Positions 18,036 through 33,732 of a stretch of 33,732 nt of DNA are shown in pieces. Position 1 is the stretch's first letter, and each line of letters begins with the position of its first letter. The translations under genes were made by a program, and so were the position numbers. The stretch is from positions 1-33,732 of the forward strand of contig NZ_AYKF01000086.1 of the NCBI RefSeq assembly GCF_003732545.1. Reading direction: 5' to 3'. This stretch comes from Salinisphaera orenii subsp. halophila YIM 95161 (GTDB lineage Bacteria; Pseudomonadota; Gammaproteobacteria; Nevskiales; Salinisphaeraceae). Under the pieces are notes generated by a model. That model ran no database searches. It was not told the origin of the DNA and was given only the letters and a program-made list of their open reading frames with translations.

Positions 18036-18062
18036 CCCGAGGATCGCATCGGCGGGCGCGGC

Positions 18063-18683: not shown

Positions 18684-18746
18684 GGGGCGTCGCGCGCGGG
18701 GTGTCGAACGTCATCATGACCGATCGCAGGCGACCGGAAAAGGCGG

Positions 18747-19946: not shown

Positions 19947-20017
19947 GCGCACTGGAGCTATGAATCAGCGAACCGACGATACCGGAGGTGCGGGCTGCGC
20001 GGGCCGGGGCGCGGCGC

Positions 20018-21235
20018 TCAGGCCCGCGCCGGCAGCCCGGTGCCGGCCGTGCCGGTGTGCCTCCACAGGGACGCGAGTGCGCGTCCGGCCGCGCGCGCGA
20101 TCCCGATGGCGGGGCGCTCGATGCAGCGTTGCGCGAGATCGGCGACGACGAAGCTGGCAACGAATGCCAGGGCCAGGAGCCAGCCGAGGCCGATGTGCGT
20201 GTGGCCGGCATGAAGCATCGCCAGAAGCACCAGCGGATGGAACAGATAGAGACTGTAGGAGATGCGGCCCAGGTAACGCAGCGGCGCGCGCGCCAGCCCG
20301 CGTGCCAGCGCCGGCTCGTAGGCGGCCGCGATCAGCAGCAGCGCCGCTCCGGGCATCAGAAGCCAATCGCCGACGATCATCTCGTGCGTGCCGGTGACCT
20401 CCATCGCCCGGGGCCCATAGACGTAGAGCGTCAGCCCCAGGGCGAGCAGGAGTGCCCGCGTGCGCGCCGGCAGCCCGGCATAGATCGCGGCCAGGCTTTC
20501 ACGCCGGTCGGCGAGCACGCCGCCGATGGCGAATGCGAGGAGATAGTGCACGGTAAACACGTAGGCCGTGTAACCGCCGTCGCGAGCGAACCCGGCGAGC
20601 TCGTCGTGCCCGGAGAACACGGCGATGCGCAGACCCGCCATGACGACACTGGCGAGCCCGAAACCGCCCAGCACCGTCCACCACCGCAGACGTCGGATCA
20701 TCAGGAAGACGAGCGGGAACAGCAGCGAGATGCGCATCTCGTGCACCAGCGTCCAGATCGCGAAGTCGTAGGTCGAGGAGTCGAAGGCACCGATGACGGT
20801 GAGGTGGCCGAGCATGGCGCGGGGCCCCGGGTCGTCGGTCCAGAACTTGTTGATCCAGTCGCCCAGCCCGGCCAGATCGCCGCCGTACAGCCACTGCTGC
20901 CCGGCGACCCCGAGCCCCACGGCGACGATATAGGGCAGATAGAGACGCAGGATGCGCTTGGCCGCATAGGCGCCATAGGTCAGTCGCCCGCCTTCGAGCA
21001 TCAACTGAAGCACGAATCCGCTGAGAACGAAGAACAGCACCACCGCCGCGTGGCCGCTCCAGAGGATGCTGAGCGGCGTGTGGCCGAAGTAGGCGAGGAC
21101 CGCGTCGTGCCAGCCGGCATAGGGCGGATTCTCGGCGCCGCGCAGCACGAGCAGGAAGTGGCCGATCACCACGCTGCAGGCCGCGAGCCCGCGCAGGGCG
21201 TCGAATGATTCGATTCGGGCTCCGGAGCTGGGCAT
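20018..21235 (-). CDS. Acyltransferase 3 family membrane protein (OafA-like)
   Basis: The 405-residue integral membrane protein has about ten helices. The N-terminal FDALRGLAACSVVIGHF contains the catalytic arginine and histidine in the R15-x10-H26 spacing of acyltransferase-3 proteins. A FFVLSGFVLQLML segment and the late YLGRISYSLYLFHPLV helix are also typical. Such proteins transfer acetyl or other acyl groups to polysaccharides, LPS or peptidoglycan. The target is not evident because no polysaccharide genes adjoin it. The start at 21235 is set by GGGAG 4 nt upstream; a longer frame to 21283 lacks such a site. Confidence 0.88.
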   Translation of the reverse strand: MPSSGARIESFDALRGLAACSVVIGHFLLVLRGAENPPYAGWHDAVLAYFGHTPLSILWSGHAAVVLFFVLSGFVLQLMLEGGRLTYGAYAAKRILRLYLPYIVAVGLGVAGQQWLYGGDLAGLGDWINKFWTDDPGPRAMLGHLTVIGAFDSSTYDFAIWTLVHEMRISLLFPLVFLMIRRLRWWTVLGGFGLASVVMAGLRIAVFSGHDELAGFARDGGYTAYVFTVHYLLAFAIGGVLADRRESLAAIYAGLPARTRALLLALGLTLYVYGPRAMEVTGTHEMIVGDWLLMPGAALLLIAAAYEPALARGLARAPLRYLGRISYSLYLFHPLVLLAMLHAGHTHIGLGWLLALAFVASFVVADLAQRCIERPAIGIARAAGRALASLWRHTGTAGTGLPARA

Positions 21236-21366
21236 CGCGCGCTCCCGTCGTCGTGCTCGAACGGCCGTGCCGTTCAGGGTCATCCAACGAGCGGGGATCG
21301 CGATCGGTTCCAGTGCTCCGCAGGGGTATCATCGTCAGCGCCGACGATTTCACACGGGACGACGAC

Positions 21367-21954
21367 ATGGACGAATGGGTTCGACGCGCGCTGGCGAAAT
21401 GGCCGGATGTGCCGGCGCTGTTCGGCTGGCTGGGCCTGAGCCGCCGCGGCCACTGGCTGATTCAGGGCGAGCGCATCACCCATCCCCGCATCGTGGAGAC
21501 CATCGCGCGCAATTACGCCGTCGATGCGCACGGCCGCTGGTTCTTCCAGAACGGGCCGCAGCGCGGCTATGTCGCGCTGGACTACGCGCCACGCGTCGCG
21601 CGTGTCCAGGCCGACGACGGCCTGGTCGACCACACCGGCACGCCCGTCACCGATGCGCGTGCGCTCTATCTGGACGAGGACAGCGCCGCGGTGCTCGACA
21701 GCCCGGACGGTGCGGCGCTGATCGATAGCGCCGACCTGGCCTGGGTGCTCGAGCGTCTGCGCCATCGCGGCGAGGCGGTCGACGACGCCGCGCTCGAGGC
21801 GGCGCTCGAAGCCCCCGGCGGCACCGCCACCGACCTCACGCTGGACGCGTTCGGCCGCGCGCTGGCCGTGCACCGCTGTGATCGTCACGCGCTGCCGGCC
21901 GCGCTCGGCTTCGTACGCGATCCCCAGCCGCGGGACGACGACCCCGGCGCCTGA
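21367..21954 (+). CDS. Conserved hypothetical protein
   Basis: The 195-residue protein begins MDEWVRRALAKWPDVPALFG and continues GWLGLSRRGHWLIQGERI and RNYAVDAHGRWFFQNGPQRG. This arrangement is familiar from a proteobacterial protein family of unknown function; I do not assign a DUF number with confidence. There is no signal peptide or membrane segment. The second half (about 85-195) is acidic and Ala/Leu-rich and may be a separate helical domain. It is divergent from the acyltransferase gene and precedes the AhpD-like and creatininase genes on the same strand (58-bp gap to the next). Confidence 0.7.
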   Translation: MDEWVRRALAKWPDVPALFGWLGLSRRGHWLIQGERITHPRIVETIARNYAVDAHGRWFFQNGPQRGYVALDYAPRVARVQADDGLVDHTGTPVTDARALYLDEDSAAVLDSPDGAALIDSADLAWVLERLRHRGEAVDDAALEAALEAPGGTATDLTLDAFGRALAVHRCDRHALPAALGFVRDPQPRDDDPGA

Positions 21955-22012
21955 CGAGACGTTCGCGCCCCGCGCTGCTATCGTCGCGCTGTTCATCCAT
22001 CAGGAGATGCCC

Positions 22013-22597
22013 GTGTCCCATGCGCCCATCAGCGCGTTCGAGGTGCCCGACGAGGCCGAGCTGCCCGAGGACATCCGCGAACGCATCCTCGCCGTGCAGG
22101 ACAAGGCCGGCTTCGTGCCCAACGTGTTCTGGGTGCTGGCCCATCGTCCGGCCGAGTTCCGCGCCTTCTTCGCCTATCACGACGCCCTGATGGAAAAGGA
22201 CTCGGGGCTGACCAAGGGCGAGCGCGAGATGATCGTGGTCGCCACCTCAGGCATCAATCACTGTCTGTACTGCGTGGTCGCCCACGGCGCGATCCTGCGT
22301 ATCCGCGAGGGTAATCCGCTGATCGCCGATCAGCTCGCGGTCGACTATCGCCACGCCGACATCAGCGCGCGTCAGCGCGCGATGCTGGATTTCGCCGTAC
22401 AGGTCGCCACCGCCTCGCACACCGTGGGCGAGGCCGAGCGCGAGACGCTGCGCGCGCACGGCTTCTCCGACGAGGACATCTGGGATATCGGCGCCGTGGC
22501 GGCGTTCTTCGCCCTGTCCAACCGGATGGCCCATGTCACCGCCATGCGGCCGAACGACGCGTTTCACCTGATGGGCCGACAGCCGGGCGAAGGTTAG
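22013..22597 (+). CDS. AhpD-like peroxidase-related enzyme (CMD family)
   Basis: The 194-residue protein has a carboxymuconolactone-decarboxylase/AhpD-like fold with the redox motif HCLYCVVAH, giving the CxxC-xxxH arrangement of alkylhydroperoxidase AhpD. The flanking GLTKGEREMIVVATSGIN and DAVVAFF-like helices (DIWDIGAVAAFFALSNRM) are typical. It probably handles peroxides in the cytosol through disulfide exchange; the reductant is unknown. The start is decided by the ribosome site AGGAG (22002-22006): it touches the ATG at 22007 but is 6 nt from the GTG at 22013, so GTG is preferred. The creatininase gene follows after 7 bp, so the two are probably coexpressed. Confidence 0.85.
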   Translation: MSHAPISAFEVPDEAELPEDIRERILAVQDKAGFVPNVFWVLAHRPAEFRAFFAYHDALMEKDSGLTKGEREMIVVATSGINHCLYCVVAHGAILRIREGNPLIADQLAVDYRHADISARQRAMLDFAVQVATASHTVGEAERETLRAHGFSDEDIWDIGAVAAFFALSNRMAHVTAMRPNDAFHLMGRQPGEG

Positions 22598-22604
22598 CGG
22601 CGGC

Positions 22605-23420
22605 GTGGGTGCGATCCATCGCTGGGCGGAGCTGACCGGGCCCGAGCTTGCCGAGGTCGCGGCCGGCGATCCGGTCGCCGTCTGGCCGCTGGCGGCGGTC
22701 GAGCAGCACGGCGCCCACCTGCCGCTGGGCACCGACACGATCATCGGCGAGGGCCTGTTGGCAGCGGCCTGCGGGGCATTGCGCGAGACGCCGCTGCCCG
22801 AGGCGCGTGATCTGCTGGTCCTGCCGACGTTGGCGCCCGCCGCGAGCCTGGAGCACAGCGCCTATCCGGGCACTCTGAGTCTGTCGGCCGAACAGGTCAT
22901 CACCACGCTCGAATCGGTCGGCGCGGATCTCGTCCGTGCCGGTGTGCGCCGGCTGGTGCTGTTCAACAGCCACGGCGGCAACAAGGCGGTGATGGATCTG
23001 GCCGCGCTGAAGCTGCGCGCCGCGCACGCCATGCTCGTGGTCAAGGCCAGCTATTTCCGTTTCGTCCCGGCGGCCGAGGTGCTGCCGGCGGCGGAACTCG
23101 CCCACGGCGTGCACGGCGGGGCGCTGGAAACCGCGCTCATGGCCCATCTGGCGCCGGAGCGCATCCGCACCGCGCACGTCGCGGATGTCCGGCCCCTCGG
23201 CCGCGAGCTGGCCGACGCCGGTCGCACGATCGCGCCCGAGGGCGAGGCTGCTTTTGCCTGGATGGCCCAGGATCTGCATCCCAGCGGCGTGGCCGGCGAC
23301 GCCACCCTGGCCGACGCCGAGCGCGGCGCGGCCCTGTGCGCGCATATCGCCGAGCGCACCGCGGCCGTGCTGCGTGACGCCGCCGCCTTCGATCTGTCGC
23401 GCCTGCGCCCGACGCCGTGA
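22605..23420 (+). CDS. Creatininase-family amidohydrolase
   Basis: The 271-residue protein, with a GTG start, has the full metal-site pattern of the creatininase family: E and H in VEQHGAHLPLG (about 33-35), D in GTDT (about 44), H in FNSHGGN (about 124) and E in HGGALETALM (about 177). The family includes creatininase, mycofactocin protease MftE and archaeal ArfB, which deformylates the GTP-derived pyrimidine in riboflavin and F420 synthesis. It lies 37 bp from the convergent end of a GTP cyclohydrolase II-like gene. That makes an ArfB-like role in GTP-derived chemistry attractive, but this is inference; it could equally be an unrelated amidase paired with the AhpD-like gene. Confidence 0.87.
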   Translation: MGAIHRWAELTGPELAEVAAGDPVAVWPLAAVEQHGAHLPLGTDTIIGEGLLAAACGALRETPLPEARDLLVLPTLAPAASLEHSAYPGTLSLSAEQVITTLESVGADLVRAGVRRLVLFNSHGGNKAVMDLAALKLRAAHAMLVVKASYFRFVPAAEVLPAAELAHGVHGGALETALMAHLAPERIRTAHVADVRPLGRELADAGRTIAPEGEAAFAWMAQDLHPSGVAGDATLADAERGAALCAHIAERTAAVLRDAAAFDLSRLRPTP

Positions 23421-23457
23421 GCGGCGGCGTCCTGCGACCGGGCGCCTGCGTCTCCGG

Positions 23458-24585
23458 CTAGCCCTTGCCGTTCATCGCCACATCCGCGGACGGCTTGCCG
23501 AGCACGTTGTCGAGCCAGTGGCCGGAACGCGCCGCCTTGGCGGTCAGATAGCGCTCGTTCTGGGCCGTGAGGCGGCCGTAGACGCCGCTGCGCTGGACCA
23601 CGGCGATCCCGCCGCCGCTCATCGCCGCGATCTTGGCCGGATTGTTCGTGAGCAGCTCGATGCGCCGGATCTCGAGCTGGGCGAGCATTTCCAGGGCGAC
23701 GTTGTAGTCGCGCTCGTCGTCGCCGAAACCCAGCACCTGGTCGGCGTCGACCGTGTCCAGGCCGTCGTCCTGCAGGCTGTAGGCGCGCAGCTTGTTGGCC
23801 AGGCCGATGCCGCGGCCCTCCTGGGCGAGGTAGAGCAGCACGCCGCCGCCGCGCTCGGCGATGGTGGCCACGCTCGAGCGCAGCTGCTCGCCGCAGTCGC
23901 AGCGCAGGCTGCCGAACAGGTCCCCGGTCAGGCAGGCCGAATGCAGCCGCACCGGCACCGCCGTGCGCCAGAATTCGGGCTCGCCGATGACGATGGCGAT
24001 GTGCTCGCGCACGCCGTCGGCCTCGCGAAAGAGCACGAAGCGGCTCTTCTCGGCGTCGGCCAGCGGTACGTCCGCCGCGCTGATCCGGCGCAGGAAGTGG
24101 ATCGCACTCGACTCGTAGGCCTCGATGCGGTCGACGTCGATGGCGAGCAGCGTCTGGTCGTCGATCAGCTTCTGCACGGCCTCGCGCCGCGAGGCGTCGA
24201 TCGTCGCGGTCACGGCGGCGGGGATCAGCAGACCGCGGCGCATGAGTGCGAGCGCGGCGTGCGATTCCCGGTCGACGTCCGTCGGCCGCTGGTGCGGGCT
24301 GTGCTCGACGTGGCGCGCGCAGGCCCAGGCGACGACGGTCTGCGCGCTGTCGCCGTCCGTCAGCGACAGCCGCGCGGCATCCGCGGCGATCTCGATGCCC
24401 ATGCGCTCGAGCCGGTGGCGGGTGACCACGAGCGCCGGCGGGTTGCCGGTGGTCGCCCGCAGGCGCGTGAGCGTCTCGTCGGTCAGCCCCTCGAGCGGTG
24501 CCACGAGCGTGTCGCGGTCGCGGCCGCGCACGAGCACCGGCACACCGCGGCGCAGGTCGAAGATCGAACGTTCTATCTGTCGCAT
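23458..24585 (-). CDS. ribA: GTP cyclohydrolase II with degenerate RibB-like N-terminal domain
   Basis: The 375-residue protein has a C-terminal GTP cyclohydrolase II domain (about 180-345). Zinc cysteines C218, C229 and C231 lie in CLTGDLFGSLRCDCG, Y252 in LLYLAQEGRGIGLANK, R292 in DERDY and LLTNNPAK at 311-318, so catalysis to a diaminopyrimidine is likely. The first 170 residues resemble a dihydroxybutanone-phosphate synthase (RibB) fold (FDLRRGVPVLV, then LVVTRHRLERMGI). The acidic catalytic loop (normally DxxDRENEGDL) reads RDRDTLVAP, so this half is probably inactive. The start at 24585 has GAGG 4 nt upstream. It is divergent from the RibD-like gene across 158 bp. It may be a pathway-dedicated paralogue rather than the housekeeping RibA. 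Confidence 0.9.
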   Translation of the reverse strand: MRQIERSIFDLRRGVPVLVRGRDRDTLVAPLEGLTDETLTRLRATTGNPPALVVTRHRLERMGIEIAADAARLSLTDGDSAQTVVAWACARHVEHSPHQRPTDVDRESHAALALMRRGLLIPAAVTATIDASRREAVQKLIDDQTLLAIDVDRIEAYESSAIHFLRRISAADVPLADAEKSRFVLFREADGVREHIAIVIGEPEFWRTAVPVRLHSACLTGDLFGSLRCDCGEQLRSSVATIAERGGGVLLYLAQEGRGIGLANKLRAYSLQDDGLDTVDADQVLGFGDDERDYNVALEMLAQLEIRRIELLTNNPAKIAAMSGGGIAVVQRSGVYGRLTAQNERYLTAKAARSGHWLDNVLGKPSADVAMNGKG

Positions 24586-24648
24586 GTGACCTCGCTTGAT
24601 CGACGCGACCGGATGCACGCCGTTGGCTCAAGAACACAACGCCGGTCG

Positions 24649-24661
24649 GGTTCGTCGAACC
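24649..24661. promoter_or_regulatory. Palindrome in the ribA/ribD-like divergent promoter region
   Basis: GGTTCG-T-CGAACC is a perfect 13-bp dyad in the gap between the divergent GTP cyclohydrolase and reductase genes. It lies inside a wider GCCGG...CCGGC repeat (24641-24664) that is followed by TTTT. It may be an operator shared by both genes or a weak hairpin. No regulator gene is adjacent. Confidence 0.4.
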
Positions 24662-24743
24662 GGCTTTTGGGATAGGGTGATGCCCGGCGCCCGCGGCGGC
24701 TATCCGTGCTGCGCCGGAAACGATGCGCACTCCGGAGGCTCCG

Positions 24744-25556
24744 ATGACGGCAATCGATATCGACTACGCATGGCGATCGCTTCGCGATGCATGCACGGGC
24801 CGCGGCGATGGGATGACGCCCGCGGTCACGATCGACGCCGACGGCCGCTGGCGGGCCGACGGGGCGGTCGAGCCCGAAGCCGCCACGCTGCTGGACACGC
24901 TCGCACCGATCACCCGCGCCGGCACCGTCGTCGGCCAGCTCGGCCAGAGTCTCGACGGGCGCATCGCCACGATCACCGGTGCGTCGCACTACGTGACCGG
25001 GGCGGCCAGCCGCACGCATCTGCATCGGCTGCGGGCGCTGGTGGATGCCGTGGTCGTCGGCGCCGGGACCGCCCAGGCCGACGATCCGCGCCTCACGGTC
25101 CGCCATGTCGACGGCGCCGATCCGGTGCGGGTGGTGCTCGATCCGAACGCGCGGGTCGGGCCCGACCGGCTGCTGTTCACCGACGGTGCCGCGCCCACGC
25201 TGCACGTGGTGGCGCAGGGGCGGCGGGCATGCCGGGGCCCCGGCGTGGAGACCGTGGCGGTCGCACCGGATGCGGCGGGCGCCGTGGCGCCGGCGACGCT
25301 TCTCGCCGCGCTTTCCGCGCGCGGGCTGCGCCGGGTGCTCGTGGAGGGCGGCGGACTGACCGTCTCGCGCTTTCTGGCAGCCGGGCTGCTCGATCGGTTG
25401 CACGTGGTCGTCGCGCCCATGGTCATCGGCTCCGGCCGGCCCGCGGTGACGCTGGCCGAGATCGAGACGCTCGATGCCGCCCTGCGGCCGCCGTGCCGAA
25501 CGCATACGCTGGATGCCGACACGCTGTTCGATCTGGATCTCGGCCGTCCCGGCTAG
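24744..25556 (+). CDS. RibD C-terminal-type reductase without deaminase domain
   Basis: The 270-residue protein has the dihydrofolate-reductase-like fold of RibD reductases: GQLGQSLDGRIA (64-75), VVVGAGTAQADDPRLTVR (103-120), VLVEGGG (198-204) and APMVIGSGR (224-232). The N-terminal deaminase domain of bacterial RibD is absent; instead there are about 60 unassigned residues. Stand-alone reductases of this kind reduce a ribosylaminopyrimidine to the ribityl form, as archaeal ArfC does. A GGAGG site 5 nt upstream sets the start at 24744 (MTAIDID) over an ATG at 24723. Its 3' end overlaps the convergent membrane-protein gene by 134 bp. Confidence 0.9.
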   Translation: MTAIDIDYAWRSLRDACTGRGDGMTPAVTIDADGRWRADGAVEPEAATLLDTLAPITRAGTVVGQLGQSLDGRIATITGASHYVTGAASRTHLHRLRALVDAVVVGAGTAQADDPRLTVRHVDGADPVRVVLDPNARVGPDRLLFTDGAAPTLHVVAQGRRACRGPGVETVAVAPDAAGAVAPATLLAALSARGLRRVLVEGGGLTVSRFLAAGLLDRLHVVVAPMVIGSGRPAVTLAEIETLDAALRPPCRTHTLDADTLFDLDLGRPG

Positions 25557-26481
25557 GCGCCCGCCGTCGGCCACCCCGCGCAAGCACCACAAGCCCCGGC
25601 AGGCTGGATACCAGCACGATCAGGCCATAGGTGATCGAGATCGCCACGCCCTCCTGCGCCGGCAGGCCCGCCAGACTCCAGATGATCGCGGCGGCGCCTT
25701 CGCGCAGCCCCCAGCCGGCGACCGACAGCGGTATCGCCATCGCCAACAGTACCGGCGGCGCGAGCATCCAGAGGGACTGTGCGCCGCGATCCAGCCCCAG
25801 CGCCTGGGCGCAGAGCACGAAAACGCCGACATAGCTGGCGGCCACGAGCAGCGAGCTCGCCAGCTGCAGCGCGACCATGCGGCGTCCCAGCAGTCCGCGT
25901 CGGAGACTGTCGATCAGGCTCAGCAGATGAATCGCCATGCGCCGCGAGCCGCGCACCACGTACGCCGCGAGCAGACCGCCGCCGGCCAGCAGGATGAATC
26001 CCCCCGAGGCGGCCCAGGGATCGACCTGCTCGAAGGCGCGGCCAACGCCCTCGCGCAGCCCCCGTGCCTGAAGGACGGCGAAGGCGGCGATCAGCACCAT
26101 GGCCAGCTGTCCGGACAGGCGTTCGATCAGGACCGCATGAACCGCGCCGCGGTTGTCGTTGTGGCGGGCGTGGCGCCAGGCCCGCGTGGCGTCGCCGAGC
26201 ACGCCGCCGGGCAGGACCTGGTTGAGAAACGTCGCCAGATAGTATTCGCGTACGGCCACCGGCAGGCGCAGGTCCAGGCCGATGCCGCGCGCGGTCAGCC
26301 GCCAGCGCCAGGCGGAGACGACCACCTGGGGCACGGTCAGCGCGAGTGCCGCCAGTGCCCAGCCGGGGGCGATGGTGCCGAGTTGCGCCGCGATCTCGGC
26401 GGTATCCAGCCGCCAGGCCACGAGTCCCAGCAGGATGACGGTCACGCTCAGTCGCAGCAGGGCGGCCTGGCGCGGCGTCAC
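25423..26481 (-). CDS. LPG-synthase-type integral membrane protein (putative flippase)
   Basis: The 352-residue protein has about eight membrane segments and the LPG_synthase_TM/UPF0104 signature YYLATFLNQVLPGGVLGDAT (81-100), then IERLSGQLAMVL and IPLSVAGWGLREGAA. The family comprises the membrane half of MprF and many stand-alone proteins proposed to move lipids or glycolipids across the membrane. It starts at a GTG that overlaps the methyltransferase stop (GTGA), which fixes the start within a longer open frame. The last roughly 45 residues run antisense into the RibD-like gene and are Arg/Ala-rich, so the end is unusual. Last gene of the five-gene operon. Confidence 0.85.
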   Translation of the reverse strand: MTPRQAALLRLSVTVILLGLVAWRLDTAEIAAQLGTIAPGWALAALALTVPQVVVSAWRWRLTARGIGLDLRLPVAVREYYLATFLNQVLPGGVLGDATRAWRHARHNDNRGAVHAVLIERLSGQLAMVLIAAFAVLQARGLREGVGRAFEQVDPWAASGGFILLAGGGLLAAYVVRGSRRMAIHLLSLIDSLRRGLLGRRMVALQLASSLLVAASYVGVFVLCAQALGLDRGAQSLWMLAPPVLLAMAIPLSVAGWGLREGAAAIIWSLAGLPAQEGVAISITYGLIVLVSSLPGLVVLARGGRRRAPSRDGRDPDRTACRHPAYAFGTAAAGRHRASRSRPASPRAGRSR

Positions 26482-27344
26482 GGCTCGGCCCGCGGCGGCG
26501 TGGCGAGCAGGTCGCGGTGCCCGACGCGGCAGCATGCTCGGCCGGCGGCGACATCCGCCGCGCGCCGCCGCGCCCAGCCGGCGATGCGGGCCGCGCGGGC
26601 CGGGGCCTGGGCGGTGGCCGCCTCGCGCCAGCCGTCGATCAGGGCGGCGGCTAGGCGGGCGTCGTCGCGGCCGAGACGCCAGGGGCTCGCGGCCGAGGCC
26701 ACGTGCCAGCCGTGGCGCTGGAAGGCCCGCTCGAACGCCGCCGGCGCCTGCGTGCCGAGCGCGGCGCCGAAGCCCTTGTCGCGGTGCTGGTGCTCGGCGA
26801 GCCGGGCGAAGACGAAGGCGTCGTCCTCGTCCTCGGGCGCGCCGTCGGCCTCGAAGGCCAGATCGCCGTCCACGCTGAGCGCGATCAGCGCCGGGACGGC
26901 GTGGGCGGCACAGGCGCTCGCGAGACGATCCAGCCACTCGGCGTCGACCAGGTCCAGCAGCGCCGCGGCGGTCACCAGATGCGCCCCGGCGATCAGGACG
27001 CCCGGATCGCGCGCGAGGTCGGCGGCGATCGTCTCGAGCGTCACCGGGCGTCCCGATCGGTCGCGCTGTTCGGCGCATTCGCGCGCCGCGCGGGCCAGCA
27101 GATCGGCGTCGTGATCGACCAGGTGCCAGTGCTGGGGCCCGGGCAGGCGTGGTGCCAGATGCCGCAGATTCGAGCCGCTGCCGCAGCCGAGATCCACGAT
27201 CCGGAGGGTGTCGTCCCGCGCCGCGTGCAGCCGGGCCGCTGCGGCTTCGCTCAGTCCGCTGCTGCGCGCCGCGTGGTCGGCGGGTTCGCGCAGGGCGAGC
27301 CAGTCGGCGGCGAAGCGGGCGTCCGGGACGATCGCATCGCTCAT
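26478..27344 (-). CDS. SAM-dependent methyltransferase
   Basis: The 288-residue class I methyltransferase has motif I VDLGCGSGSNLRHL (about 50-63), the acidic end of strand two in HLVDHDADLL and motif LVTAAALLDLVD. The middle segment with APEDEDDAFVFARLAEHQHRDKG and a C-terminal Trp/Arg-rich helical region are probably substrate-specific. It transfers a methyl group from SAM; the acceptor is unknown. Position between a glycosyltransferase gene and a membrane-protein gene, with 4-bp overlaps on both sides (ATGA at its start, GTGA at its end), implies that the products act together. Confidence 0.87.
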   Translation of the reverse strand: MSDAIVPDARFAADWLALREPADHAARSSGLSEAAAARLHAARDDTLRIVDLGCGSGSNLRHLAPRLPGPQHWHLVDHDADLLARAARECAEQRDRSGRPVTLETIAADLARDPGVLIAGAHLVTAAALLDLVDAEWLDRLASACAAHAVPALIALSVDGDLAFEADGAPEDEDDAFVFARLAEHQHRDKGFGAALGTQAPAAFERAFQRHGWHVASAASPWRLGRDDARLAAALIDGWREAATAQAPARAARIAGWARRRAADVAAGRACCRVGHRDLLATPPRAEP

Positions 27345-28402
27345 GCCGGCACGTCGTCGGCGATGGCTTCGAGCATCGCCGAGAACTCGGCGGCGGCCGT
27401 GCGCCAGGGGCGCAGGCGTTCGCGCTCGGCAAGCGCGCCGCGCCGCACGGCGGCCAGCGCGGCCGGGTCGTCCAGCAGCGAGCCCAGCGCGGCGGCCAGC
27501 GCGGCGACGTCGCCGGGGGCGGCCGTGCGCGCGGCTCGTGCCGGAACCGTATCCGCGAGCGCGCCGCCGTTAGTCGTGACCAGCGGCAGACCGCGGGCCA
27601 GGGCCTCGGTGACGACCATGCCGTAGCCTTCGTAATGCGAGGCCAGCACGAACAGATCGGCACGATCGTAGGCGGCGGCGAGTTCGCGCTCATTGCAGTC
27701 GCCGTGCAGCCGAACGCGTGCGCCGAGGCCGAGCGTGTCGATACGGGCGCGGATACGGGCCGCGTGTGCCGGCTCGCGGTCGAGGCTGCCGACCACGTCG
27801 CAGTGCCAGTCGCGGTCGGCGAGCCGGGCGAGTGCGTCGAGGAGCACGGCGTGGCCCTTGCGGGGGGTGACGGTCGCGACACACAGCAGACGGCAGCCGG
27901 GGCCGTCGCTGCCGCGGGCCACGGGCGCCGGATCGGTGCCGGGCTCGATCACCCGCGGCGGAGCGGCGGCGAGGTCGAGCTCGACCAGCCGGCGGGCGGT
28001 GAAGCCGCTGGTGACGACCACCGCCCGGGCGACGACCAGTGCGGCGCGTTCGTCGGCGAGCAGCCGGGCGCTCGCGGCGGCCGTCAGGCCGGTCTCGTCG
28101 GCGAGCGGGTGATGCACGAGCGCGATCAGGCGCAGGCGATCGGCGTGGGCACGGGCGGTCTCGGCCAGGCCGCCGAGCACGAGCCCGTCGACGATCACGC
28201 AGGCGCCGTCGGCGCAGGCGTCCAGCGCCCGTTCCAGGGCGCGCGCGGCCCGAGCATCGGGCTCCGGAAAGCGGCCCTCGAGCCCGGCCACCGTCACCGG
28301 ATGCCCGAGTTCGCGCAGACCGGCGACGATGCGCGCGTCGTAGCGGTAGCCGCCGGTGCGCTGTTCCGGATCGCCGGCGACGACGAACGTGATCGGCGTC
28401 AC
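27341..28402 (-). CDS. Glycosyltransferase family 4-like protein
   Basis: The 353-residue GT-B fold protein has an N-terminal acceptor half (glycine loop AGDPEQRTGGYRYDARI, 9-25; LIALVHHPLADETGL) and a C-terminal donor half with ATVTPRKGHAVLLDAL (176-191) and the E-x7-E nucleotide-sugar site E258/E266 in HYEGYGMVVTEAL. It should transfer a sugar from a nucleotide donor with retention of configuration. The acceptor could be the small molecule made by the neighbouring enzymes or a lipid. It starts with a GTG overlapping the stop of the pterin-synthase-like gene (GTGA) and overlaps the methyltransferase start by 4 bp. Confidence 0.88.
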   Translation of the reverse strand: MTPITFVVAGDPEQRTGGYRYDARIVAGLRELGHPVTVAGLEGRFPEPDARAARALERALDACADGACVIVDGLVLGGLAETARAHADRLRLIALVHHPLADETGLTAAASARLLADERAALVVARAVVVTSGFTARRLVELDLAAAPPRVIEPGTDPAPVARGSDGPGCRLLCVATVTPRKGHAVLLDALARLADRDWHCDVVGSLDREPAHAARIRARIDTLGLGARVRLHGDCNERELAAAYDRADLFVLASHYEGYGMVVTEALARGLPLVTTNGGALADTVPARAARTAAPGDVAALAAALGSLLDDPAALAAVRRGALAERERLRPWRTAAAEFSAMLEAIADDVPA

Positions 28403-28797
28403 ACGCGGCCCTCGAAGCTCGCCCAGGCGATATGCGACTCCGACAGCGTCACGCTCATCCCCTCGACGCCGCGGGCACTATCGCCGAGCCGGCCGGCGCG
28501 GATGGCCTCGCGCATGCGCTCGAATACCACGCCGGCGAGGAACTCGGTCGTGGTGTTGCGGCCCGAGAAGGCCGGCTCCTCGTCCAGATCGCGCATGTTC
28601 AGCCCGGCGAGCACGTCCTTGAGGCCGGCCCCGGCCAGACCGATGTCGATGACCAGGTCGTCGGCGTCGAGCGCCTCGCGCCGGAAGGTGACGTCGACCA
28701 CATAGGTCGCACCGTGGGTGTGCTGGGCCGGGCCGAATATCTCGCCGTTGAAACTATGGGCGATCATGAAGTGATCGCGGACGGTCAGACTGTACAT
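28399..28797 (-). CDS. Divergent 6-pyruvoyl-tetrahydropterin synthase/QueD homologue
   Basis: The 132-residue protein keeps the T-fold layout of PTPS/QueD: first zinc histidine H14 in MIAHSF, HTHGATY (26-32), VIDIG (49-53), NTTTEFLA (81-88) and the substrate-anchoring E120 in LSESH. Aligned by eye to QueD, the catalytic cysteine position is A24. The third zinc histidine position is A30, perhaps replaced by H26. The Asp-His pair of the LDH motif is N67-M68. Classical lyase activity is therefore doubtful, and the fold may bind a pterin or catalyse another step. It lies 37 bp after the dehydrogenase gene and overlaps the glycosyltransferase start by 4 bp. Confidence 0.85.
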   Translation of the reverse strand: MYSLTVRDHFMIAHSFNGEIFGPAQHTHGATYVVDVTFRREALDADDLVIDIGLAGAGLKDVLAGLNMRDLDEEPAFSGRNTTTEFLAGVVFERMREAIRAGRLGDSARGVEGMSVTLSESHIAWASFEGRV

Positions 28798-28834
28798 GGC
28801 ATATCCTGTGGTATGGGGTGGCGATACGCGCGCG

Positions 28835-29812
28835 CTAGTCGTAGCGGATGCGCTGGCAGAGCGTGGGGTCGTGCGGGTCGGCCAGACGGGCCATGACCTC
28901 GGGCAGGCGCTCGAAGGGCGCCTCGGCGTCGATGAGGGCGTCGAAGCGGGCGTCGGCGAGCAGCGAGACCGCCAGCCCGAGGCGGCGGTGGTGGCTCCAG
29001 CGCGGGCGCTGGCCCGGCGCGACGCCTCCCACCTGGCTCGCCCGCAGCGTCAGACGCCGCGAGTGGAAGGCGCCGCCGAGCGGAACCCGCGGCGCCTGCG
29101 CGCCGTACCAGCTCATCTCGGTGACGGTGGCCTCGAAACCGGCCAGCGTCAGAGCCTGGGCGAGCCCGGCCTCGCTGCCGCTGGCGTGGATGACGCGGTC
29201 GCGCTCGCCCGCGGCCGCCGCCGGCGAGCGAAAGCGCAGGCCCAGAGCGCTTCCCAGCGGGGCCTTGCGGTCGTCGATGTCCACCAGTTCGACGTCGGCG
29301 CCGGGCAGCGACGCGGCGAGTCCTGCGACCAGCGCGCCGACCACGCCGGCGCCGATCACGGTGATGCGCTCGCCGATGCCCGGGGCCGTGTCCCAGAGCG
29401 CGTTGATCGCGGTCTCCATGTTGGCCGCGAGCACCGCGCGCTCCGGCGGTACGTCCGCCGGCAGTGCGACGACGGCGTCGACGGGCACCACGTAGCGCGT
29501 CTGGTGCGAATATAGACAGAACACCTCGCGCCCGAGCCACTCGTCCGGACCGGCCTCGACCACGCCGACGTTCGCGTAGCCGTGGCGCACGGGGCCCGGC
29601 AGCGCGCCGGCCTGGAATGGTGCCCGCATGCGCTCGTATTCGCTCGCCGGCACGCCGCCGGCGTAGACCAGCGTCTCGGTGCCGCGGCTGACCGCGCTGT
29701 AGCGGCTGCGCACGCGCAGTTCGCCGGCGCCCGGCGCGCCCACGGCGATCGGCTCGATACGGCTGTCGTGGGGCGGGTGCAACCAAAAGGCGCGGTCACC
29801 GGTATCATTCAT
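28835..29812 (-). CDS. Medium-chain dehydrogenase/reductase without visible zinc ligands
   Basis: The 325-residue protein has an MDR catalytic half and a Rossmann half with VIGAGVVGALVAGLAA (about 152-167) and ELVDID at the end of strand two. The catalytic zinc cysteine normally found in the CGTD/CGTE loop is a serine (SAVSRGTE, 39-46), and the GHE histidine region reads RHGYANVG (76-83). A zinc-free redox mechanism on NAD(P)H is therefore likely. The RGTETLVYAGGVP segment recalls BchC-type dehydrogenases, but no photosynthesis genes are present. First gene of the operon that continues with the PTPS-like gene; the 115-bp gap upstream is shared with the divergent phosphatidyltransferase. Confidence 0.82.
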   Translation of the reverse strand: MNDTGDRAFWLHPPHDSRIEPIAVGAPGAGELRVRSRYSAVSRGTETLVYAGGVPASEYERMRAPFQAGALPGPVRHGYANVGVVEAGPDEWLGREVFCLYSHQTRYVVPVDAVVALPADVPPERAVLAANMETAINALWDTAPGIGERITVIGAGVVGALVAGLAASLPGADVELVDIDDRKAPLGSALGLRFRSPAAAAGERDRVIHASGSEAGLAQALTLAGFEATVTEMSWYGAQAPRVPLGGAFHSRRLTLRASQVGGVAPGQRPRWSHHRRLGLAVSLLADARFDALIDAEAPFERLPEVMARLADPHDPTLCQRIRYD

Positions 29813-29927
29813 GTATGGATGTCATGCAACAGAAATTCTCCGGCAATACTTGCAGCCCGGGCGCGGTTGATCCAGCGCGCGTCCGACGTGTAGGGCGGCC
29901 GCGCATCGATATCCGCGGCGAGCCGCG

Positions 29928-30719
29928 ATGATGCGCGCGTTCGAGCATGGCACGCCGGCGGTCGGCGAGGGGCCCACTGGCGCCGCCTCGCCGGCCCGGC
30001 GGCGCCTGCGGGCGGCGGGTGAGCTGCTGATCGGATTCACACTGCTGTTCGCGGGCGTGGAGCTGGCCATGGGGCTTCTCGACGCGCCGCCGATGCTGCG
30101 CGTCTCGGCCGGGGGATTGTATCTCGCGCTCGCGGTCGTGCTCGTGGGGCCGGGCGAGGCGCCGCCGGCCCGGCTGGGCTGGGCCAACCGGGTCACGCTG
30201 CTGCGCGCGGCCGTGGTGTTGCTCATCGCCGGCCTGCTGGTGTTTCCGGAGGTGCCGCGTGCCCATCCCTATGCAGTGCTCGGCCTGGCGCTGGCGGCAC
30301 TGCTGCTCGACGGTGTCGACGGCTGGGTGGCGCGCCGCACGCGCTCGATCACCGCCTTCGGCGCCCGCTTCGACATGGAACTGGACGCGTTCTTCATCCT
30401 CGTGCTCTGCGTCGGCCTGGTGGCGACCGAACGGGTCGGCCCCTGGGTGCTGGGGATCGGCCTGGCGCGCTATCTGTTCGTGTGCGCGGGGCGCCTGCTG
30501 CCGTGGATGCGCCGGCCCCTGCCGCCGAGCGTTTTCCGCAAGGTCGTGTGCGTCTGGCAGGTCGTGACCCTGTTGCTGTGCTTTGTGCCGGCGATGCCCG
30601 CCGCCGTGGCCGTCGGGGCCGCCGCGACGGCGCTGTCGCTGCTGGCGGTGTCGTTCGGCCGCGACACGTGGTGGCTGCTGCGCCACCGATGCGATGATCG
30701 TACGCCCGACGCGTCATGA
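29928..30719 (+). CDS. CDP-alcohol phosphatidyltransferase family protein
   Basis: The 263-residue membrane protein has about six or seven helices and the complete family motif D131-G132-xx-A135-R136-x8-G145-xxx-D149-xxx-D153. These enzymes displace CMP from a CDP-alcohol with a second alcohol, as in synthesis of phosphatidylglycerol phosphate, phosphatidylserine or inositol lipids. An extra hydrophobic N-terminal stretch (about 33-75) precedes the usual first helix. Substrates are unknown. It is divergent from the pterin-like operon across 115 bp, which raises the possibility of a lipid-linked product. Two adjacent ATG codons (29928, 29931) can serve as start. Confidence 0.88.
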   Translation: MMRAFEHGTPAVGEGPTGAASPARRRLRAAGELLIGFTLLFAGVELAMGLLDAPPMLRVSAGGLYLALAVVLVGPGEAPPARLGWANRVTLLRAAVVLLIAGLLVFPEVPRAHPYAVLGLALAALLLDGVDGWVARRTRSITAFGARFDMELDAFFILVLCVGLVATERVGPWVLGIGLARYLFVCAGRLLPWMRRPLPPSVFRKVVCVWQVVTLLLCFVPAMPAAVAVGAAATALSLLAVSFGRDTWWLLRHRCDDRTPDAS

Positions 30720-30774
30720 CGGCTGACGCGGCAAGACGACAATCGATGACCCCGAGTCCATAGGAGACACGATC

Positions 30775-31380
30775 ATGCCATTCCCGACGTCGACCCTGAC
30801 CGGCCCGCGCCTGACCGCGGCCGCGCTCGCGGCCTGTGCCGCGGGCACGGCCGCGGCGGAGCCCGAGCGCTACGAGATCGATCCGGCCCATTTCTCCATC
30901 GGTTTCTCGATCGAGCACGTCGGCTATGCCGATGTGCTGGGCATGTTTCTGGAGGGCGAAGGCAGCTTCGTCTACGACGAGGCCACCCGCGAGCTGTCCG
31001 AAGGTCGCGTGGAGATCGCCGCCGACAGCGTGTTCACCAATCACGAGGAGCGCGACGGCCACGTCCGCGGTGACGATTTTCTGACGGCAGAGGATCACCC
31101 GGAGATCGTGTTCGTGGCGCGCGAATACACGCCACGCGGTGCGGACGGCGGAGAACTCGAGGGCGATCTCACGCTGCACGGCGAGACCCATCCGGTGACT
31201 CTGGACGTGACCATCAACAAGAGTGCCGAGTATCCCTTCGGCCACGGCCAGCATACCCTGGGCGTCTCGGCGAGTACCCGCATCGAGCGCAGCCGCTGGG
31301 GCATGGACTACGGCGTGGCCAACGGCATGGTCGGCGACACGGTCGAGCTGGACTTCGAGTTCGAAGCGATACGCCAGTAG
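30775..31380 (+). CDS. YceI family periplasmic protein
   Basis: The 201-residue protein has a signal peptide (about 1-28, ending TAAA) and the YceI lipocalin-like barrel: YEIDPAHFSIGFSIEHVGYA, then EEGDGHVRGDDFL-like NHEERDGHVRGDDFL, HPEIVFVAREY, GDLTLHGETHPVTLDV and SASTRIERSRWGMDYG. Family members bind long isoprenoid or lipid-like molecules such as polyprenyl chains. An AGGAG ribosome site stands 8 nt before the ATG. It follows the phosphatidyltransferase gene after 55 bp on the same strand and may share its transcript. Confidence 0.92.
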   Translation: MPFPTSTLTGPRLTAAALAACAAGTAAAEPERYEIDPAHFSIGFSIEHVGYADVLGMFLEGEGSFVYDEATRELSEGRVEIAADSVFTNHEERDGHVRGDDFLTAEDHPEIVFVAREYTPRGADGGELEGDLTLHGETHPVTLDVTINKSAEYPFGHGQHTLGVSASTRIERSRWGMDYGVANGMVGDTVELDFEFEAIRQ

Positions 31381-31719
31381 CCGGCGATCGCCCGGCCGCT
31401 GCGGATGGCCAGGGCCCGCTAAAACTTCATTCGAACGCCGCTTTGGAAGCCGCACATCGTGTGTGGCAAGGCGCGAGTCGCCGATCGTCGCGCGCCACGC
31501 TCCAGACGGGCAACGCCGCAGTGCACCCTTGGTTGATTATTCATGCGCGGCCCAACCCTAGAGTCCAAGGGCCCCGTGAAACGACCAGCGTGCGGCGATC
31601 CAGCGTTGTCGCAGGCTGGCGCAGAGTGATTGCGCGGCGCGCACGACGCCTCGTCTTGCCGCCCATAGTCAATTTTCAGGAAGCGCTTCGCGCGGGCTCG
31701 TATGAAATGTTGATGGGCC
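31381..31719. other. Intergenic region, 339 bp, no gene recognised
   Basis: The gap between convergent yceI and the universal stress gene is visibly less GC-rich than its surroundings, with AT-rich patches such as AGTCAATTTTCAGG. I see perfect 10-bp palindromes GGCGATCGCC (31383-31392) and GAAGCGCTTC (31680-31689), but no T-tailed terminator, RNA gene or plausible reading frame. Confidence 0.5.
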
Positions 31720-32160
31720 CTAGCGCACCGTCATGCAGGCGCACGGCGCGAGGTGGCCGACCTTGTGGGTCACGCTGCCCATGAGCAGGCCGCCGAAATT
31801 CGTCAGCCCGCGCCGGCCCATGACGATGAGATCGGCGTCGAGCCGCTCGGCGCACTCGACGATGCGGCGCGCCGGATCGCCGGAGCCGACCTCGGTGGTC
31901 ATTTCGCGGATCGCGTGGTCCGCGGCGATGCGCCGGGCGGCCTCGATCACGTCGTGGCCGGCTTTCTCCACGTCCTCGTTGCTGGTCTTCACGCTGATCG
32001 CGGCGCCGCCGAGGACCAGCGTCTTGTCGTGGCCGACCGCCTGCGGGACATGCAGCACGTGCAGCCGGGCGTCGTAGCGCGGGGCCATGTCGCAGGCCCA
32101 TTCCAGCGCACGCCGGGAATGTTCCGAACCGTCGACGGCAACGAGAATCGTGTCGATCAT
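31720..32160 (-). CDS. Universal stress protein (UspA family)
   Basis: The 146-residue protein is a single Usp domain beginning MIDTILVAVDGSEHSRRALEWA. It has the ATP-binding motif G-xx-G-x9-GS in GRRGLTNFGGLLMGSV near the C-terminus and ADLIVMG before it, so it is probably of the ATP-binding class. Such proteins raise resistance to starvation and stress by means that are mostly unclear. I chose the ATG at 32160, with GAAG about 5 nt upstream, because it matches the usual family N-terminus. An ATG at 32190 adds ten residues and is possible. It is divergent from the cyclopropane synthase gene. Confidence 0.92.
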   Translation of the reverse strand: MIDTILVAVDGSEHSRRALEWACDMAPRYDARLHVLHVPQAVGHDKTLVLGGAAISVKTSNEDVEKAGHDVIEAARRIAADHAIREMTTEVGSGDPARRIVECAERLDADLIVMGRRGLTNFGGLLMGSVTHKVGHLAPCACMTVR

Positions 32161-32308
32161 GGTGTCTTCGCGGGTCGTCAGATCAGGCATCGACCCTAGC
32201 ACGGCCCGGGGAGCGCCCGGCCTTCAACTGCGGCCGCCGCCGAGGCACACTTGAACCATCGCGGCATGGCGGTCCTCGTGGCGGCAGGTCGCGCGAAAAT
32301 AAAAGTGC

Positions 32309-32339
32309 ACTATACATCGAAATACGATCGGTGTATGGT
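32309..32339. promoter_or_regulatory. Dyad operator-like site and promoter region upstream of cfa
   Basis: ATACATCGA (32312-32320) and TCGGTGTAT (32328-32336) form an inverted repeat with eight of nine matches and a 7-bp spacer, extended by AC/GT outside. It lies in an AT-rich island in otherwise GC-rich DNA. CTATACA at 32310-32316 resembles the extended -10 of stationary-phase sigma-S promoters, which drive cfa in E. coli, but no -35 box is evident. A TetR- or similar-type regulator could bind here. The opposite strand has TATAGT and might serve the stress-protein gene. Confidence 0.5.
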
Positions 32340-32405
32340 TGAGGTCTTGGCATCAATGGGGCGGACGGCGCCGCTACGTGTTGTCGGCCCCGGGGACGGG
32401 AGACA

Positions 32406-33653
32406 ATGAAGACACGTTTTTTTGACCGGCTGATCGACGAGGGCACGCTCGTCATTCATTACCCGGACGGTCGCACGCAGCTGATCGGCCAGGGTGCGCC
32501 CAAGGCGCACATCCACCTGCGCGAACGCCGGGTCCTCACACGGCTGCTCTCCGATCCGGAGATGGCGTTCGGCGAGGCATATATGGACGGCGACTGGTGG
32601 CCCGGCGAGGGCGGCCTCATGGCGCTGTTCGAACTCTACTTCGCCAATGCCCGCAACTTCGGCGGCAGCCGGATACTCGATATCGCGCGCCACGCGCTGC
32701 GGGGCATCCGCGAAGCCAACTCGCGGCTGCGCTCGCGGCGCAACGTCCAGCACCACTACGACATCGACAACGGCCTGTTCGAGCGCTTTCTGGACAGCGA
32801 CATGCAGTACTCCTGCGCCTATTTCGAGACGCCGGACGCGTCGCTGGAGGAGGCGCAGCAGGCCAAATGCCGCCACATCGCGCGCAAACTGTATCTCAAG
32901 CCCGGCGATCGGGTGCTCGACATTGGCTGCGGCTGGGGCGGCATGGCGCTGTACCTCGCGCGCCACCACGGCGTCGACGTGACGGGGCTGACGCTGTCGG
33001 ACAATCAGTACCGCTACGCCTGTGAGCGGGCCGAGGCCGAAGGGTTGTCCCAGCGGGTGCGTTTCCTGCAGCAGGACTATCGCGAGCACGAGGGCAGCTA
33101 CGACGCGATCGTGAGCGTGGGCATGTTCGAGCATGTGGGCCGCCCGCAGTTCCAGACCTTCTTCGATACCGTTAACGCGCTGCTGGCGCCGGGCGGACGC
33201 AGCCTGGTCCACAGCATCGGCCGCAGCGGTCCTCCGGTGGAGGACACCAAGGGCTGGATCGAGAAATACATCTTCCCCGGCGGCTATGTGCCGTCGTTGT
33301 CCGAGGTTGCGCCCTGCATCGAGGAGACCGGCATGTGCCTGTCGGACCTGGAAGTGCTGCGCCTGCACTATGCACGCACGCTGGCGGCCTGGAACGAGCG
33401 CTTCCAGCGCCACCGCGGAGAGTTCCGGGAACGGCTGGGCGAGCGTTTCTGCCGCATGTGGGAGTTCTACCTGCTCGGCTGTCAGGCGATCTTCCGCTGG
33501 GGTGACCTCGTTGTCTTCCAGATGCAGCTGGCCAAGCGCAACGACATCGTCCCGGTCACCCGCGACTATCAGTACGGTCCCGACCCCGTGGCCGCGGCGG
33601 AGGCCAGCGATCCGGCGGCCCGCTGGAGCGCGGATCTGGATCGAACGGGCTAG
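32406..33653 (+). CDS. cfa: Cyclopropane-fatty-acyl-phospholipid synthase
   Basis: The 415-residue protein matches CFA synthases. It has an N-terminal lipid-binding domain (about 1-110), QHHYDIDNGLFERFLD, then YSCAYF with C137, the SAM motif VLDIGCGWGGMALYLA (170-185), the bicarbonate-site glutamate in VGMFEHVG, and EKYIFPGGYVPS. The C-terminal helices end near FRWGDLVVFQMQLAKRND. It adds a methylene group from SAM to unsaturated acyl chains of membrane phospholipids at the inner membrane face, usually in stationary phase or under acid and solvent stress. About 20 acidic residues extend the C-terminus. A GGGAG site lies just upstream of the ATG. Confidence 0.95.
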   Translation: MKTRFFDRLIDEGTLVIHYPDGRTQLIGQGAPKAHIHLRERRVLTRLLSDPEMAFGEAYMDGDWWPGEGGLMALFELYFANARNFGGSRILDIARHALRGIREANSRLRSRRNVQHHYDIDNGLFERFLDSDMQYSCAYFETPDASLEEAQQAKCRHIARKLYLKPGDRVLDIGCGWGGMALYLARHHGVDVTGLTLSDNQYRYACERAEAEGLSQRVRFLQQDYREHEGSYDAIVSVGMFEHVGRPQFQTFFDTVNALLAPGGRSLVHSIGRSGPPVEDTKGWIEKYIFPGGYVPSLSEVAPCIEETGMCLSDLEVLRLHYARTLAAWNERFQRHRGEFRERLGERFCRMWEFYLLGCQAIFRWGDLVVFQMQLAKRNDIVPVTRDYQYGPDPVAAAEASDPAARWSADLDRTG

Positions 33654-33719
33654 CCCGCAGCCGCGGGCTCCGGCTATGCGGTCCGTGTGCACCCGGCCGC
33701 GCTCCGAGGCGCGGCCGGG
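33653..33719 (+). terminator. Hairpins downstream of cfa
   Basis: GCCCGC (33653-33658) pairs with GCGGGC (33663-33668) right at the stop codon. Further on, CCCGGCCGCGC (33692-33702) pairs perfectly over 11 bp with GCGCGGCCGGG (33709-33719). Neither is followed by a T-run within the window, so termination is plausible but not certain. Confidence 0.45.
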
Positions 33720-33732
33720 GCGGGGTCGAGTC

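Follow-up and report, generated by a model that had tools for sequence, protein, structure and literature searches.

A conserved gene cluster around a PTPS-IV protein and a candidate route from GTP to a glycosylated, methylated pterin-type product

The locus and its PTPS-IV protein

The window analyzed here is a stretch of 33,732 nucleotides from Salinisphaera orenii subsp. halophila YIM 95161 (NZ_AYKF01000086.1). Within its genome, of 3.79 Mb and 98.66% completeness, it is contig C86. It contains a gene cluster built around a T-fold protein of the PTPS-IV subfamily. The order of the core genes is kept in four phyla, a joint pathway is well supported, and we lean towards one that branches off riboflavin synthesis. 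The features of the locus are as follows:

22605..23420, plus strand: creatininase-family hydrolase, possible formamidase or amidase (PF02633, 4.9e-62)
23458..24618, minus strand: GTP cyclohydrolase II (GCHII) with a degenerate DHBPS-like N-terminal region (PF00925, 2.4e-56)
24723..25556, plus strand: RibD_C-type reductase, no deaminase domain (PF01872, 2.7e-40, residues 69-249)
25423..26481, minus strand: LPG_synthase_TM / flippase-like membrane protein (LPGS), accessory (PF03706, 9.3e-41)
26478..27344, minus strand: class I S-adenosylmethionine (SAM) methyltransferase (MT) (PF08242, 1.5e-7)
27341..28402, minus strand: GT4 glycosyltransferase (PF00534, 1.4e-28)
28399..28797, minus strand: PTPS-IV / SCO6650-type T-fold protein, FGPAQ...HGAT signature (PF01242, 1.5e-21)
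28835..29812, minus strand: MDR-superfamily oxidoreductase (weak BchC and MDR matches; alignment of 18 relatives)
29928..30719, plus strand: CDP-alcohol phosphatidyltransferase, accessory (PF01066, 2.4e-17)
30775..31380, plus strand: YceI family protein, recurrent neighbor (PF04264, 1.7e-41)

All enzyme families named in an earlier reading of this DNA, made from the sequence alone, are present at this place by Pfam matches, weakly in the case of MDR. The MDR protein gives partial, sub-threshold Pfam matches only; among NCBIfam models, BchC comes closest, at 2.6e-8 and 33 bits (cut-off 291). The protein lacks the usual catalytic zinc cysteine and reads SRGTE at its canonical position. The minus-strand genes are arranged in the order MDR, PTPS, GT4, MT and LPGS, followed by RibD_C (plus), GCHII (minus) and creatininase (plus). 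These five minus-strand genes had been described as one operon with 4-bp overlaps. By open reading frame coordinates this holds for three of the four junctions (PTPS/GT4, GT4/MT and MT/LPGS), and fails for MDR and PTPS, which are 37 bp apart. The convergent LPGS and RibD_C genes share 134 bp at their tail ends. MDR and the CDP-alcohol gene diverge, and YceI starts 55 bp after the latter. The true start of GCHII is perhaps the ATG at 24585, and the reductase starts at 24723 or 24744. A promoter scan of 22500-31500 found none. The same region has four terminator-like sites, compared to 1.0 +/- 0.9 in shuffles, but all of them lie within genes and are therefore not informative.

The window PTPS protein reads FGPAQHTHGATY. 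It carries the FGPAQ signature, in which F21-G22-P23-A24 are invariant and Q25 is conserved at 90% or more among 31 aligned rows. H14, H28, T83-x-E85 and E120 are invariant in these rows, and A30, which produces HGA instead of HGH, is conserved at 90% or more. In QueD and PTPS, a C-terminal glutamate holds the pterin ring. The QueD model gives the window protein 34 bits, below its cut-off of 89. The family profile matches the structure 3d7j in the Protein Data Bank at 4.8e-58, and other PTPS structures at 2.5e-7 or weaker. This structure is of SCO6650 from Streptomyces coelicolor, which belongs to the same PTPS family; the actinobacterial loci share the core of the cluster, and the Streptomyces seoulensis copy is 63% identical to the window protein. 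The 3d7j protein is reportedly a hexameric T-fold without zinc and without PTPS activity. Elsewhere in the window genome, a 379-aa frame (C88:74550-75293) has two PTPS-family matches and is perhaps an ordinary QueD-like gene.

The PTPS-IV protein at the heart of the cluster is a published orphan. The motifs CxxxHGH, CxxxxxHGH and ExxHGH, given for PTPS-I, -II and -III / QueD in the available text of PMC5445326 and PMC5041015, are absent from the window protein. The available text of PMC5445326 gives FGPAQ as the signature of PTPS-IV, a subfamily of COG0720 (AGeNNT cluster-node 62), and places PF00925 and PF01872 in its neighborhood, as in our cluster. It labels PF00925 as GTP cyclohydrolase I / FolE2, whereas the domain here is GCHII. 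The text, to which the figures may add, mentions no MDR, GT4, methyltransferase, LPGS, CDP-alcohol or creatininase partner. It assigns no function to PTPS-IV; elsewhere we found only a statement, in the accessible part of PMC5041015, that assigns PTPS-IV to F420 synthesis with reference to 'de Crecy-Lagard and R. White unpublished'. The proposal that the pathway is undescribed therefore needs narrowing. The subfamily was already in print, together with its association with GCHII and RibD_C but without a function, whereas no report of the whole cluster was among the papers listed in our literature search.

Conservation of the cluster

A scan with one genome per species gave at least 592 confirmed PTPS relatives. 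The best 80 were retained as the named loci; these are the top-scoring matches and no random sample. The evenly drawn loci (38) come from genomes sampled evenly from the class and the phylum. The close loci (14) are from the same genus or the same family as the window. Together they make 132 loci, with partial overlap between the named loci and the other two sets (e.g. G006 and L121); contig ends truncate some of them. Gene counts, obtained with profiles cleaned of GT4-MT fusions, are:

Best 80 named loci: MDR 80, PTPS 80, GT4 78, MT 75, CDP-alcohol 74, LPGS 59, RibD_C 53, creatininase 47, GCHII 41, YceI 22
38 evenly drawn loci: MDR 37, PTPS 38, GT4 37, MT 35, RibD_C 31, CDP-alcohol 22, LPGS 19, GCHII 13, YceI 13, creatininase 7
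14 close loci: MDR, PTPS, GT4, MT, RibD_C and GCHII 14 each, creatininase 13, LPGS 5, CDP-alcohol 5, YceI 1

The order MDR, PTPS, GT4, MT on one strand and within 5 kb is found in 74 of the 80 named, 33 of the 38 evenly drawn and all 14 close loci. The best 80 of the at least 592 relatives belong to Pseudomonadota (50), Actinomycetota (21), Gemmatimonadota (6) and Acidobacteriota (3). In 26 of the 132 loci (20 named, 6 evenly drawn), a single open frame encodes both GT4 and MT. Among 369 genomes of the class, PTPS-IV (E < 1e-30) and the MDR subfamily (E < 1e-90) occur in the identical 17; four more have MDR matches at 1e-56 to 1e-66 without PTPS-IV. The MDR matches in G281 and G313 contain one stop each. 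The conserved order, the fusions and the identical distribution of MDR and PTPS-IV across genomes support the joint pathway of the sequence-only reading, and the core is kept beyond close relatives, across four phyla, instead of scattering. A chance neighborhood was rejected on the conserved order.

In the MDR tree, grouping is mainly by phylum. The 21 actinobacterial rows form one group with support 100/100, and three changes each are needed for Pseudomonadota and Gemmatimonadota. PTPS is present in all 14 Salinisphaera genomes searched. Three genomes of 1.0-1.1 Mb (G201, G313 and G408) retain YceI, CDP-alcohol, MDR, PTPS, GT4, MT, LPGS and RibD_C. The GT4-MT fusions were seen in Marinobacter, in Vreelandella/Halomonas, in one Gemmatimonadales and in one Streptomyces locus (e.g. 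L090, L119, L113, L138 and L160). Two records are likely mislabeled: L081 (PALT01000032.1), labeled 'Rhodovulum', nests among Vreelandella, and L075 (NZ_JAGHQU010000013.1) is labeled 'Endozoicomonas sp. G2_2'.

GTP cyclohydrolase, reductase and creatininase

The cluster GCHII retains the zinc cysteine motif C-x10-C-x-C, QEGR and the switch tyrosine, whose roles we assume, and scores 229 bits against NF001591 (cut-off 148). Its N-terminal region of ~180 aa overlaps in profile with the DHBPS part of RibBA proteins. Alone, this region has no Pfam match, and the DHBPS motif GHTEA is absent from this protein and from 27 evenly drawn or close cluster GCHIIs, which places them outside RibBA. The window genome contains two GCHII and two RibD_C matches. 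On contig C87, a 395-aa protein has intact DHBPS motifs (ENEGD and GHTEA) and a GCHII domain without the zinc cysteines and QEGR; the cluster protein is its mirror image, with GCHII intact and GHTEA gone. C87 also carries a 434-aa frame with RibD_C that corresponds to a full-length RibD.

No other intact GCHII was found in the window genome, and the cluster copy must therefore also serve riboflavin synthesis. For this reason it was rejected as an extra, dedicated ribA. Of the separate housekeeping genes that the sequence-only reading proposed to look for, ribD is thus present and ribA is not, the other GCHII being degenerate. By its own refuting condition, this counts against that reading for ribA, but not for ribD or for the other genes, which do not scatter. 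Control by an FMN riboswitch was also rejected, as an Rfam scan gave no match at gathering score in window positions 18000-33732 and two tRNAs only in C87:1-14000.

GCHII genes were classed as intact or degenerate on the basis of short motifs; 18 stretches were re-examined, which left one partial match (G506). A cluster GCHII is present in 28 genomes (27 loci and the window), and by this measure 17 of them have no other intact GCHII. These 17 are all 14 Salinisphaera genomes, three of them less than 90% complete, and G016, G462 and G703. Four others (G434, G503, G608 and G624) have another GCHII with the zinc motif but no QEGR, and seven (G316, G411, G422, G714, G720, G747 and G801) have a second intact one. 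In G281, the sole intact GCHII adjoins a RibD_C gene on another contig. Only degenerate GCHII was seen in G127, G197, G201, G214, G309, G324, G408, G419, G506, G669, G672 and G798, with no match at all in G313; all 13 also lack GTP cyclohydrolase III.

The cluster reductase consists of RibD_C alone and has no pyrimidine deaminase domain, and it stands beside the separate full RibD on C87, in agreement with the sequence-only reading. The best solved relative of its family profile is the diaminopyrimidine reductase 6p8c (7.8e-45). With TIGR01508, the archaeal ArfC / yeast-type reductase, it scores 113 bits against a cut-off of 186, and is thus related but outside that family. At least two RibD_C genes are found in 49 of 53 PTPS-IV genomes, the exceptions being G313, G462, G499 and G798.

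The creatininase-family protein is the only PF02633 match in the window genome. E33, H35, D44, H123 and E175, which presumably bind metal, are invariant among 15 aligned rows. Together with the cyclohydrolase and the deaminase-free reductase, this hydrolase resembles archaeal ArfA, ArfB and ArfC in outline. The resemblance does not extend to the archaeal type of cyclohydrolase, which was rejected because GTP cyclohydrolase III (PF05165) is absent from all 43 genomes searched, the window genome included. The creatininase scores 19.3 bits with the ArfB model NF033501 (cut-off 180), placing it in the same superfamily only.

The switch residue of GCHII bears on the same comparison. In Streptomyces coelicolor SCO6655, a methionine at this position reportedly leads to the release of a formylated pyrimidine; the window GCHII has tyrosine, not a residue of the SCO6655 type, and an extra N-terminal region. 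Among the 21 actinobacterial loci, the 13 with a GCHII have methionine (7) or histidine (6) at the switch, and a creatininase is near in 13 of 13. A formyl product needing a deformylase is therefore plausible in actinobacteria. The non-actinobacterial named loci with GCHII have tyrosine in 27 of 28 cases (isoleucine in L080), with a creatininase in all 28, and the evenly drawn and close cluster GCHIIs have tyrosine in 27 of 27, with a creatininase in 17. Thus, the likeness to ArfA/B/C seen in the sequence-only reading suits the actinobacterial versions, but for the window GCHII there is no support for an ArfA-like formylated product. A creatininase-annotated protein of Sinorhizobium meliloti, BrbF, is described in the available text of PMC9478397 as a formamidase that removes formate from a GTP-derived pyrimidine, and is likened to our gene by description only. 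The window creatininase may be a deformylase, or it may have another role.

A candidate pathway and its alternatives

From the families, residues, gene order, co-occurrence and fusions, we infer the following reactions, PTPS-IV substrate and product. With moderate confidence, we propose a conserved pathway that departs from riboflavin synthesis at 2,5-diamino-6-ribosylamino-4(3H)-pyrimidinone 5'-phosphate and ends in a pterin-type product, glycosylated and methylated, in which the 2-amino group is retained. The cluster GCHII would convert GTP to the diaminopyrimidine, in Salinisphaera also for riboflavin supply. The stand-alone RibD_C reductase would then reduce the ribosyl arm to a ribityl arm. 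The deamination of the riboflavin route would not take place, which is why the 2-amino group would stay. The surplus of RibD_C paralogs makes this branch point the natural reading, with the paralog as the first dedicated enzyme. The conserved glutamate of PTPS-IV may bind the 2-amino-4-oxo ring. A QueD or PTPS reaction is not expected, because PTPS-IV has lost the nucleophile motif of QueD and some of the zinc site; it more likely closes or modifies the ring or the side chain. The zinc-free MDR enzyme may carry out an NAD(P)-dependent redox step, and GT4 and MT, acting as one unit, would glycosylate and methylate the product. In a subset of genomes including the window, the CDP-alcohol phosphatidyltransferase and the flippase-like protein probably attach the product to a lipid or transport it through the membrane, and YceI may carry it.

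Several observations weigh against this proposal. Of the 38 evenly drawn loci, some of them truncated at contig ends, 25 lack GCHII and 7 lack RibD_C, and synteny alone therefore does not fix the entry from GTP. By motif, 13 of the 53 PTPS-IV genomes have no intact GCHII, with one partial match in G506. The MDR and PTPS genes of G127 sit on different contigs. If the window GCHII, with its tyrosine, completes the usual reaction, the pathway does not require the creatininase next to it to act as a deformylase. The lipid genes are absent from 9 of the 14 close loci. Binding of a pterin-like ring by PTPS-IV is predicted from conserved residues and the roles that these have in related proteins.

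Recurrent lipid genes, YceI and opgG/opgH neighbors hint at a link to the cell envelope. In the 14 close loci, the CDP-alcohol and LPGS genes are either both present (5) or both absent (9). OpgH-family genes lie in the stretches around the cluster in 15 of the 80 named, 12 of the 38 evenly drawn and none of the 14 close loci, and the 21 actinobacterial stretches contain neither opgG nor opgH. The Gemmatimonadales locus L113 has an opgG-opgH-MDR-PTPS string (L113:3-4202), Halomonadaceae such as L089 have creatininase-fkbM-opgH-opgG, and opgH is next to MDR in genomes from another class of the phylum, probably alphaproteobacteria. OpgH was confirmed by NCBIfam in the six proteins tried (L077, L113, L185, L189, L190 and L196), and OpgG by Pfam in two (L107 and L113). 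Genes of the cytochrome b561 family lie near MT and RibD_C in 7 of the 38 evenly drawn loci (L185, L187, L188, L189, L191, L195 and L196), one of them confirmed by Pfam (PF01292, L185:13134-13676). Loci with opgG or opgH near the cluster include L113, L089, L174, L177, L180, L181, L185, L187, L189-L191, L193, L195 and L196.

Two alternatives to the proposed pterin-type pathway concern the nature of the product. The MDR-PTPS-GT4-MT core may make something unrelated to GTP, such as a substituent of an envelope glycan or glycolipid, with PTPS-IV as a recruited fold and ribA and creatininase as neighbors that supply riboflavin. The OpgH genes (12 of 38 and 15 of 80 loci) fit this idea, as do the absence of GCHII from 25 of 38 evenly drawn clusters and the 17 of 28 genomes, perhaps 4 more, in which the cluster GCHII is the only intact one and there a riboflavin gene. 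However, seven genomes hold a cluster GCHII besides an intact one elsewhere, the RibD_C paralog is in 31 of 38 evenly drawn clusters with at least two such genes in 49 of 53 genomes, and the PTPS family with its conserved glutamate, taken in its usual role, points to a guanine-derived ring. We regard a product unrelated to GTP as unlikely. Alternatively, the product could be linked to lipid or envelope: the CDP-alcohol phosphatidyltransferase would join the ribityl-phosphate arm, or a sugar, to a phospholipid, LPGS would flip it and YceI carry it, with OpgG/OpgH glucans involved in several lineages. The frequency of the CDP-alcohol (74 of 80, 22 of 38), LPGS (59 of 80, 19 of 38) and YceI (22 of 80, 13 of 38) genes, the both-or-neither pattern in close loci, the six confirmed OpgH proteins, the L113 string and cytochrome b561 in 7 of 38 loci are consistent with it. 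But these genes are accessory and missing from many clusters, opgG/opgH are not seen in the actinobacterial stretches, and we know of no such lipid. We consider this version quite unlikely. Its most specific form, in which a ribityl-phosphate-linked ring on a phospholipid is moved by LPGS, carried by YceI, engaged in redox with cytochrome b561 and coupled to OpgGH in some lineages, so that the product is a lipid-anchored, glycosylated, methylated pterin-type envelope cofactor, is a long shot.

Two known pathways were compared as well. In toxoflavin synthesis, GCHII, a RibD-type protein and a methyltransferase are used, and the same three co-occur here. The cluster RibD protein, however, has no deaminase domain, and to our knowledge PTPS, MDR, GT4 and the lipid genes have no counterpart in that synthesis. 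PTPS is moreover in 14 of 14 Salinisphaera genomes, and genomes of 1.0-1.1 Mb retain the cluster. Judged by these genes, the chance that a toxoflavin-like azapteridine is made is negligible. The role in F420 synthesis, stated without data but with reference to unpublished work in the available text of PMC5041015, is highly improbable. The F420 ligase (PF01996) was found in one of 53 PTPS-IV genomes, in a match with internal stops, whereas 3 of 14 controls were positive, all of them archaea; the F420 pathway was disfavored on these grounds.

If the proposed branch from riboflavin synthesis is correct, the gene set provides a concrete, ordered list of enzymes for the orphan structure 3d7j. The branching would occur at a known intermediate of riboflavin synthesis, and the product is predicted to retain the 2-amino group. 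Since at least 592 stretches encode the PTPS family, with one genome per species, a common bacterial metabolite may be absent from pathway maps. The window genome also suggests that one gene serves both riboflavin synthesis and the cluster pathway, a point to bear in mind when genes are annotated from the family name alone. A lipid-anchored pterin, if true, would represent a membrane cofactor or head group of a new class, shared by hundreds of species.

A sulfatase-like membrane protein family of ~440-790 aa occurs near the cluster in 17 of the 80 and 6 of the 38 loci (e.g. L135:16782-18398, L152:3572-5197, L181:696-2351 and L183:6989-8914). Its matches to PF00884 in L181 and L183 are weak (25 and 26 bits, cut-off 25); L152 has no Pfam match at 1e-4, and L135, L152 and L084 have no NCBIfam match. 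Within the window, a flavin reductase and a DAO-type oxidoreductase are encoded upstream (18063-18683 and 18747-19952), and a cyclopropane-fatty-acid-synthase-type enzyme is encoded downstream of YceI (32406-33653).

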